This document shows positions 30,276 to 31,863 of a DNA stretch of 32,001 nt, piece by piece (the stretch's first letter is position 1; each line of letters opens with the position of its first letter). A program made the translations under genes and the position numbers. The stretch covers positions 1 to 32,001 of IMG/VR virus record IMGVR_UViG_3300030389_002569. One strand, written 5' to 3'. Under the pieces are notes generated by a model. It worked only from the letters and a program-made list of their open reading frames with translations. It was not told the origin of the DNA and searched no databases. The DNA comes from a virus.

Positions 30276-30659
30276 TCAAGCCAAATCAATCTGGACTCGT
30301 ATGTCCCCTGCCACTTGCACTTGCGATCTATCTATCGGCTTATATCCTGCACGGTCTAACAAATCCTTAGCCGCTTCCAACTGGACATACTCGGACTTTG
30401 CGTTAGTCACTAACCTTCGTAACTGCCCTGCAGCAACTGTAGCACTAAGCCCAAACTCCTCATTCATTCTTTCCATCAGGTATTGCTGCACATGCGGTTG
30501 CTTTAACGCCTTGCTAGCACTTACTCTTCCCGACTCCCCATCTGCATATCCCGCAAGCGGCGCGGCCTGTGTAATAGTGCAGCCTTTTGCTACTATCGTA
30601 TCCACCAACGCGGTCTGTTTCCGTGTTAGCTTTCTTGCAACTGGCAGGTTGTTATTCAC
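30276..30659 (-). CDS. terS: Terminase small subunit
   Basis: A 127-residue protein with the terminase small subunit HTH pattern: LTRKQTALVDTIVAKGCTI followed by TQAAPLAGYADGESGRVSA and SKALKQPHVQQYLMERMN (about 12-70), and a C-terminal region ending VQIDLA. It recognises the packaging start and directs the large subunit. It is the first gene of the minus-strand unit. Start codon follows AAAAGGGGG with about 10 bases spacing. Direct repeats upstream may be its binding site. Confidence 0.75.
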   Translation of the reverse strand: MNNNLPVARKLTRKQTALVDTIVAKGCTITQAAPLAGYADGESGRVSASKALKQPHVQQYLMERMNEEFGLSATVAAGQLRRLVTNAKSEYVQLEAAKDLLDRAGYKPIDRSQVQVAGDIRVQIDLA

Positions 30660-30711
30660 TCTAGCCCCCTTTTCTTTTCCCCCACGCTTTCCTGTTTATC
30701 ACCGCTTTGTC

Positions 30712-30749
30712 TACAATTACCTTACGTCACAAGTACAGTTACCTTACGT
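30712..30749. repeat. Two tandem 16-bp repeats upstream of terS
   Basis: On the plus strand TACAATTACCTTACGT (30712-30727) and TACAGTTACCTTACGT (30734-30749) differ at one base and are phased by 22 bp, two turns of the helix. This spacing suggests a protein-binding site, for example for the small terminase (pac-like) or a transcription activator of the late operon. No clear sigma-70 promoter is seen nearby. Repeats are directly visible; function is inferred. Confidence 0.65.
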
Positions 30750-30854
30750 TCTTTTGGAGCTGTTAACCCGCTCTTCGATCGGGGCTATAACGGAGTTGAT
30801 AGATAAAGTGGCCAGTCTTCTTCTTCAGCTTACCTTGTGCGCTTGTCCATTATT

Positions 30855-30971
30855 GCGGTGCAGACGCACCGCTTTGCTGAGGGATTTGTCTTGTAAATCC
30901 CTCAGACTCCCACAACCGCTTTAAACGGAATTCATATTCCTATTTGCATAGGGCAAATACGAATACGAATT
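30855..30971. other. Three hairpins in the divergent region
   Basis: Hairpins: 30855-30861/30866-30872 (7 bp, AGAC loop), 30877-30887/30895-30905 (11 bp, perfect, 7-base loop) and 30929-30947/30953-30971 (17 of 19 positions paired, 5-base loop). None is followed by a T-run. They could be part of a larger structured RNA with the element downstream or a DNA structure for replication or packaging. Confidence 0.65.
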
Positions 30972-30983
30972 AACTAACTAATT

Positions 30984-31244
30984 AAATTGAACACGTTGAG
31001 AGAGGGGACAGGGGCGCGCTGACTTGTACCCTAAGCAAAATCTGGCTACCACACATACCCAGTGTTCCGATTGCTGTTAACCTGCAATTATTCTCATGGC
31101 TATTGGCCATGAGTGCAGGGCAATCGGCATAGCGTTCAAACAAAATGCGGGACGTAGTGTCCTATTTTGTTTGTAGCCAGATTTTGCATAGGGAAAAGTC
31201 AGGCAAGGTGCGCCCCTGCCGCCCTCTCTCGGCCGGTTCAATTT
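30984..31244. ncRNA. Multibranched structured element, candidate ncRNA
   Basis: Nested helices: 30984-30992/31236-31244 (9 bp perfect), 30998-31006/31222-31230 (9 bp perfect), 31009-31016/31211-31218 (8 bp perfect), 31019-31024/31197-31202 (6 bp) and 31029-31049/31173-31193 (20 of 21 positions paired, one A-A mismatch). The last encloses three hairpins: a 4-bp ACAC/GTGT hairpin (31051-31065), a long compound hairpin (31067-31127: 8 + 6 + 8 bp) and 31138-31172 (9 + 4 bp). No coding frame explains this. It could be a structured RNA or a DNA structure (origin, packaging site, mobile inverted-repeat element). The transcribed strand is unknown. Confidence 0.6.
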
Positions 31245-31288
31245 GGGGACTACAAACGAAACTTAGTCAAGTAAATAGGAGAATGAAA

Positions 31289-31813
31289 ATGGCTAGATCA
31301 AAAGTAGATACTAAAGCTTTGGAACAAGCAAACGGAAATCAAGAAGCAATGACAGACGCGAGCGCGGTAACTTATGCGCTGAATTATGCAACTGATCGAT
31401 TTATTGAATTAATAGAGTTGTTCGGCGGTACTGAATGGCAGAAGGAAAATGTCGCCAGAGGTTTTGTATCACAAGCTGAATATCTAATTTCCAATAAGAA
31501 TAAACAGATCACGAAATATGCAATGGAAGTTCAAATAGCTGAAGAGAACAAAGAGCGCGGTATGGCAATGTCTCAGACAGCCATAGAAAAAGCAGAGTTC
31601 ATCCAAGCGAACTGTGAAGTTGAACTTGAAGATTTAAAACTGTACCTTCAATCTTCTAAAGCAGCTTACAATCTTGTAGTTGGGAAAAAATACGAGCCGT
31701 TGCAGAAGCGAACTATCCCAAACAAAACCCACCGCACCGCAGCGCAACGCCTCCAAGATCAACAGGCCGAGCAGAAAAAGGTAGACGCCGCTGTTAAGAA
31801 ATACGGCAAATAA
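31289..31813 (+). CDS. Hypothetical early protein, 174 aa
   Basis: A largely helical protein with an acidic middle (IEKAEFIQANCEVELEDL) and a basic C-terminus (KRTIPNKTHRTAAQRLQDQQ, then KKVDAAVKKYGK). The start at 31289 is chosen over 31283 because AGGAG is 7 bases upstream. The open frame extends upstream into the structured element, but that extension is not credible as coding. Lies immediately downstream of the folded element and ends before a strong terminator; probably among the first genes expressed. Not recognised. Confidence 0.75.
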   Translation: MARSKVDTKALEQANGNQEAMTDASAVTYALNYATDRFIELIELFGGTEWQKENVARGFVSQAEYLISNKNKQITKYAMEVQIAEENKERGMAMSQTAIEKAEFIQANCEVELEDLKLYLQSSKAAYNLVVGKKYEPLQKRTIPNKTHRTAAQRLQDQQAEQKKVDAAVKKYGK

Positions 31814-31835: not shown

Positions 31836-31863
31836 AGAGCGGCTTCGGTCGCTCTTTTTTTTT
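31836..31863 (+). terminator. Rho-independent terminator with TTCG tetraloop
   Basis: AGAGCGGC (31836-31843), TTCG loop (31844-31847), GTCGCTCT (31848-31855), then a run of eight T residues to 31863. The closing C-TTCG-G is the classic stable tetraloop. It terminates the 174-aa gene's transcript, so this gene forms a separate short early unit. Confidence 0.9.

Follow-up and report, generated by a model that had tools for sequence, protein, structure and literature searches.

The window, meaning the whole 32,001-base virus record examined here, represents a nearly complete, circularly permuted genome, the two ends of which are bridged by one relative across a gap of approximately 230 bases. 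The structural genes (those for the terminases, a head-tail adaptor, the major head protein, and tail proteins) run leftward, and the early genes, including those encoding a YqaJ/RecE-like exonuclease and an Erf annealing protein, run rightward. None of the genes scanned was seen to encode a phage RNA polymerase, and no tRNA was found within the window. A single copy of a structured element lies between the gene for the terminase small subunit (TerS) and a rightward gene referred to here as P, in the following arrangement.

30276 to 30659, minus strand: TerS, the left neighbor of the element (phrog_2538, E value 3.7e-13)
30665 to 30683, minus strand: polypurine/polypyrimidine mirror-symmetric tract between TerS and the element, reading CCCCCTTTTCTTTTCCCCC on the plus strand
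30712 to 30749, no strand assigned: two 16-nt repeats, TACARTTACCTTACGT, 22 bp apart, matching TGACGTNACGTCA-like palindromic repeats at the same place in relatives
30984 to 31244, no strand assigned: the whole structured element, nested stems closing a three-hairpin junction, supported by fold z score and covariation
31289 to 31813, plus strand: gene P, encoding a helical protein of 174 amino acids, with homologues, and the adjacent partner gene in all relatives
31836 to 31855, plus strand: terminator-like hairpin after P, AGAGCGGCTTCGGTCGCTCT followed by a T run; a comparable hairpin follows P in one relative (L127)

The P protein has no match in PHROG, Pfam, or the PDB, and tblastn searches with the P sequences of the window and of L112 found no homologues in deposited phages. 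Its AlphaFold model is all-helical (pLDDT, 82; pTM, 0.61), and a structure search returned weak helical matches only, to unnamed phage proteins. The motifs ACYTSxNS and GExW are present in many relatives of this family of small helical proteins, which are always found beside the element. The P transcription unit looks monocistronic.

The interval between TerS and the element contains, in addition to the tract and the repeats, repeated TGACGT-like sites and, in many relatives, a TTGTCA/TTGACA motif. The two 16-nt repeats are likely operators of some regulator, and the interval as a whole may be a late promoter or a packaging region with operators. The mirror-symmetric tract could be a pac site, could form a triplex, or could mark a transcription start. 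At the tract site, most relatives carry CCCCCCTCTCCCTCTCTCCCCCC letter for letter amid surroundings that cannot be aligned.

Within the element, a long interrupted stem leads to a small branched head, with the following parts.

30984 to 31020, no strand assigned: left strand of the outer stem, pairing with 31207 to 31244 and interrupted by small mismatches
31021 to 31025 with 31196 to 31200: short inner helix, from fold prediction
31029 to 31049, no strand assigned: left strand of the 20-bp stem, pairing with 31173 to 31193
31051 to 31065, no strand assigned: junction hairpin 1, small, with 88.5% of cells paired in the alignment
31067 to 31127, plus strand: junction hairpin 2, in which two perfect stems flank a 6-nt bulge, TGTTAA (CCGATTGC-TGTTAA-CCTGCA...)
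31138 to 31172, no strand assigned: junction hairpin 3, reading CAACAAGAATAGAGATAGAGCGATTCTTGTTG in relatives; the window is partly misaligned here against the other sequences
31173 to 31193, no strand assigned: right strand of the 20-bp stem, from fold and covariation
31207 to 31244, no strand assigned: right strand of the outer stem, separated by 44 nt from the P start codon

The predicted folding energy of the plus strand is -142.0 kcal/mol, compared with -79.2 ± 4.7 kcal/mol for 200 dinucleotide shuffles (z score, -13.3), and none of the 200 shuffles folded as well; the minus strand gave -142.3 kcal/mol (z score, -12.9). Among 397 folding windows covering the whole 32-kb record, the element is the top fold, with a residual of -6.4 compared to -2.3 for the next unrelated one. 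The first-pass annotation had placed at exactly these positions a multibranched structure beyond chance, lying between divergent phage operons, and both the fold and the flanking genes (TerS on the minus strand and P on the plus strand) agree with that description; its mention of arms on a 60-bp scale is about right, provided that the nested stems are summed. It was also correct that no coding frame accounts for the element. No open frame covering the element was found, and although a 222-amino-acid ATG frame from 31145 begins within it, the likely P start is the ATG at 31289, which follows AGGAG and from which all relatives align, so that the longer frame is an upstream extension of P and not a coding basis for the element.

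Covariation of the helices among relatives, by which the annotation had proposed that its reading be judged, is present. Homologous elements were located through P protein searches in L004 to L007, L155, and L156, giving a 7-sequence alignment with the window in which two-sided compensatory changes occur at 27 of 100 base pairs, against a mean of 8.6 ± 2.2 in shuffled controls; none of 500 shuffles reached 27. The structure of the window leaves 92.4% of the alignment cells paired, a measure that, unlike the count of two-sided changes, is favored by deriving the structure from one of the seven aligned sequences. Sliding the partner strand by 1 to 3 columns left only 31 to 46% of cells paired. 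In the outer stem, two-sided changes affect 12 of the 34 pairs across the 7 sequences, with 94% of cells paired, and in the 20-bp stem the corresponding values are 7 of 20 pairs and 95.7%. The 20-bp stem has been rebuilt in L156, where CCCTAAG/CATAGGG is replaced by ATCCAAG/CTTGGAT, and GAGAG/CTCTC of the window's element appears as GGAAG/CTTCC in L004 to L006. The fold of the element has been maintained in evolution through compensatory change, with its place kept and its stem sequences not.

A wider set of 80 loci was gathered from IMG/VR through TerL relatives. By our own count, 30 relatives were usable (those with TerS and enough upstream DNA, with the truncated L042 left out), and in 25 of them the locus folds most strongly within 1 kb upstream of TerS; the fold recurs in elements with widely different sequences. 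The element had been assigned to no known family, and the proposed Rfam scan agreed: neither the window nor any of 18 related loci contained an Rfam family at gathering score, and a permissive scan of positions 30600 to 31400 gave weak chance matches to unrelated families only. A DNA similarity search of phage and plasmid collections found nothing, the exact DNA pattern AAGCAAAATCTGGCTA matched mostly unrelated contigs, and no report of the element was found in the literature searched. The nearest cultured relative is Pelagibacter phage EXVC031P Hodr, with 67% TerL identity, in which the corresponding site is occupied by an inverted repeat, 87% paired, that extends into its P gene.

Parts of the element recur as modules. 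The TGTTAA bulge is found with other stem letters in L155, L156 (as TATTAA), L157, L158 to L160, L161/L162, and L167, and control 6-mers in its place gave 0 to 1 hits. A blind pattern search of IMG/VR DNA with the CTGC/GCAG form of the bulged hairpin returned 9 contigs, every one of which was a known member or carried TerS, TerL, or P of the same phage clade. The TGTTAA-bulged hairpin looks like a recognition module. A weaker copy is present in the window at about 30757 to 30797, after the operator repeats, and the bulged hairpin is also present in L176 to L179; in L006 (3763 to 3846), a second TGTTAA hairpin is nested in the loop of the first, as if copied in. Near-identical elements precede quite different P genes in L167 and L177, and the join between element and gene lies immediately ahead of the start codon of P. 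This is a modular exchange of RNA and gene, and the RNA of the short type is therefore not tied to the sequence of P, a point against the main explanation given below. An identical apical hairpin, CAGTTCGCAATAACGCTCGTTCCTCGGATATTGCGAACTGCAAGC, is shared by the otherwise different elements of L117 and L160 and is missing from L158/L159, which are close relatives of L160. A hairpin with the apical motif GTTCGCAA is frequent in the large forms and absent from the window. The element evolves partly through module swapping.

In several relatives the element is far larger and extends over P itself. Giant inverted repeats covering P were found in L099, L106, L095, L045, L051, and L093 and likewise in L112, L114 to L129, L131, L132, L134, and L145 to L147. 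Their arms contain approximately 440 to 560 paired positions, of which roughly 76 to 86% are Watson-Crick pairs (76 to 84% in the first six loci named), in a hairpin of approximately 1,100 bases. The P protein of L045 matched 33 loci, and most of those above approximately 55% identity have the giant architecture. The right arm of the giants begins ahead of P, ends about 40 nt beyond the P stop codon, and includes the whole gene, so that one arm of the hairpin is the complementary strand of all of P, whereas the right arm in the window ends before P. Most changes in the right arm affect third codon positions, indicating that P is a real gene. The left arm was considered as a divergent paralogue of P, and this explanation was dropped because no P-like open frame is present in the left arms examined.

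The giant forms also carry a signature of which strand is under selection. When one-sided changes at paired columns were classified among closely related large forms, those leaving a G·U pair on the minus strand outnumbered those leaving one on the plus strand by 201 to 29 (138 versus 20 in the left arm, 58 versus 6 in the coding part of the right arm, and 5 versus 3 in its noncoding part), in sequence pairs that share ancestry, so that the counts are not of independent events. On the left arm the changes were A>G and C>T in the minus-strand sense; on the right arm, read along the plus strand, they were G>A and T>C. A mutation bias of one strand as the source of the A>G/C>T excess is ruled out, since the right arm shows the opposite directions. 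Selection for weakening a plus-strand hairpin is also disfavored: 181 minus-strand G·U changes compare with 100 transversion mismatches, an approximately 1.8-fold excess, despite a transition/transversion ratio of about 0.75 at 4-fold sites of neighboring genes (pooled over pairs, some of them saturated). A strand-symmetric test, in which the sequences were folded with G·U forbidden and 1-by-1 mismatches were then classified, gave minus-to-plus ratios of 162:7 in the giants, 20:5 in intermediates, 16:4 in short types (two-sided binomial P of approximately 0.01 by our own calculation, on sequences that are not independent), and 51:54 in background windows, and the signal inverted on reverse complements. 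Several of the closest relatives showed few two-sided Watson-Crick exchanges between them, or none, and such exchanges were frequent at greater distance, as expected from compensation through wobble intermediates.

The G·U bias, which affects both arms in opposite directions, points to the leftward single strand as the selected form in the giants. The pattern suggests that this strand is, most simply, RNA, and a minus-strand RNA in the giants is held with good confidence; dG·dT pairs are likewise tolerated, so that a single-stranded DNA hairpin may also be considered. A consensus scan for sigma-70 promoters turned up none that would convincingly drive leftward transcription. In the window subfamily, one-sided changes numbered 71 for the minus strand and 79 for the plus strand, and the outer stem has several conserved G·U pairs that are present on the plus strand only; the minus-strand reading would extend to the window itself through homology of place and the trend of the family.

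Taken from these comparisons of sequence, the most probable explanation is that the element belongs to a new, fast-evolving family of structured phage RNAs whose probable role is the regulation of P and of the early/late junction (probability of roughly 0.6). The more general part of this reading, that a covarying structured RNA family occupies the TerS-P junction of this marine phage clade, is very likely correct. In the proposed mechanism, the leftward strand would be transcribed as RNA and fold on itself and, less certainly, would act as a cis-encoded regulator of the P transcription unit. In the giants, the half antisense to P would be held in the hairpin by a noncoding P-mimic arm, which would pair less perfectly, through mismatches and G·U pairs, than P mRNA would, and abundant P mRNA could invade the hairpin. 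In the short type seen in the window, the branched head and a stem of approximately 60 bp would remain, just upstream of the P ribosome-binding site. The specific proposal of a regulatory RNA of the P unit is put forward tentatively. That the giants represent a class of self-complementary RNA in which the complement of an entire protein gene is one functional arm of a hairpin, with the window as a compact member, is judged at a little under even odds. If so, every position of P would have to serve both the protein code of one strand and the base pairing of the other with a noncoding partner, which would go on copying the gene as P evolves. We know of no described counterpart of a gene-long mirror arm in bacteria or phages.

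An alternative is that the element functions on the plus strand as the 5' leader of the rightward P mRNA, as a riboregulator or a put-like antitermination RNA with the TGTTAA hairpin as its recognition module. The invariant bulge with its covarying stems is found in only one orientation relative to P, the weaker copy of the bulged hairpin follows operator repeats that hold -10-like hexamers on the plus strand, a plus-strand terminator closes P, and the conserved G·U pairs of the window subfamily are on the plus strand. The minus-strand signature of the larger relatives, and of the short types taken together, does not fit a leader, and a consensus scan found no good plus-strand promoter; this explanation appears unlikely. 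In phage HK022, put RNAs are cis-acting antitermination elements whose bulged hairpins lie close to where a transcription unit begins. The likeness to the element would lie in such hairpins, and the minus-strand signature of the element family does not fit.

Slightly less probable is a role in the DNA itself, as a cruciform, replication origin, or packaging site, or a palindrome kept by template switching or gene conversion. The position beside TerS and the conserved mirror-symmetric tract is consistent with this explanation, as is the lack of a clear strand preference in the window subfamily, and a mutational process could homogenize the arms without any function. Under conversion, two-sided changes should arise at once, but the closely related L121 and L124 differ by 20 classified one-sided changes and by none that are two-sided. 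The one-sided changes are strongly biased toward minus-strand G·U on both arms, and the branched heads covary too. The strand-specific G·U signature of the larger relatives favors RNA over an origin or packaging site, a role that may still apply in the window subfamily.

A packaging RNA encoded beside the terminase gene, with a role analogous to that of the phi29 pRNA, is very unlikely. The position next to TerS and a structure conserved with little conservation of sequence would suit such an RNA, and the two are alike in keeping their fold while the sequence drifts and in lying near packaging functions. However, the size of the element ranges from approximately 260 to more than 1,100 nt, a length both very different from that of the pRNA and variable, and Rfam, which includes known pRNA models, gave no match. 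Phage phi29 lacks an ordinary pair of small and large terminase subunits, whereas the present clade has both. A MITE or transposon end, also raised by the first-pass annotation, can practically be dismissed: although an inverted repeat is present and hairpin modules are common to otherwise different elements (L117/L160 and the nested second hairpin in L006), the element is a single copy in the record, occupies the same syntenic place beside TerS and P in every relative, all of which carry an element, and shows compensatory changes across its stems.

Among known structured RNAs, GOLLD and ROOL are similar in being large, elaborate, covarying RNA structures of phages and prophages, with function unknown. 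They form nanocages and are long RNAs (many GOLLD RNAs exceed 800 nt), frequently encoded close to tRNA islands (PMC12286853). The resemblance suggested at first did not hold up: both families are in Rfam and neither matched, and the element, at 261 nt, is far smaller, lies beside TerS with no tRNA nearby, has a long simple stem with a small branched head, and in its relatives has arms complementary to a protein gene. The c4 antisense RNA of P1/P7-like phages (RF01695) is likewise a phage-encoded structured RNA of antisense type, but Rfam gave no match, and its structure, size, and gene context differ. A more distant analogy may be drawn to hairpin RNA genes formed by inverted duplication. In the birth of plant microRNAs, a noncoding inverted copy of a gene gives a long self-complementary transcript, and a noncoding inverted copy and a self-complementary transcript would be the shared features here; the differences are the phage setting, that P stays coding, and that the mirror arm tracks P across diverged relatives.

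Structured phage RNA is itself already a known kind, and this particular family has no counterpart in Rfam or in the literature searched. It adds a covariation-supported phage RNA family missing from Rfam, from marine phages that are almost wholly uncultured, and its large forms represent an extreme overlapping constraint in which the opposite strand of a protein gene is paired over its full length. Because EXVC031P is cultured and has a long inverted repeat in the corresponding position, transcription and function are directly testable in that phage. One further contig (L172, PBGS01000047.1), binned as part of a Euryarchaeota metagenome-assembled genome, carries TerS, TerL, and P of the phage clade and is probably a mis-binned phage contig.
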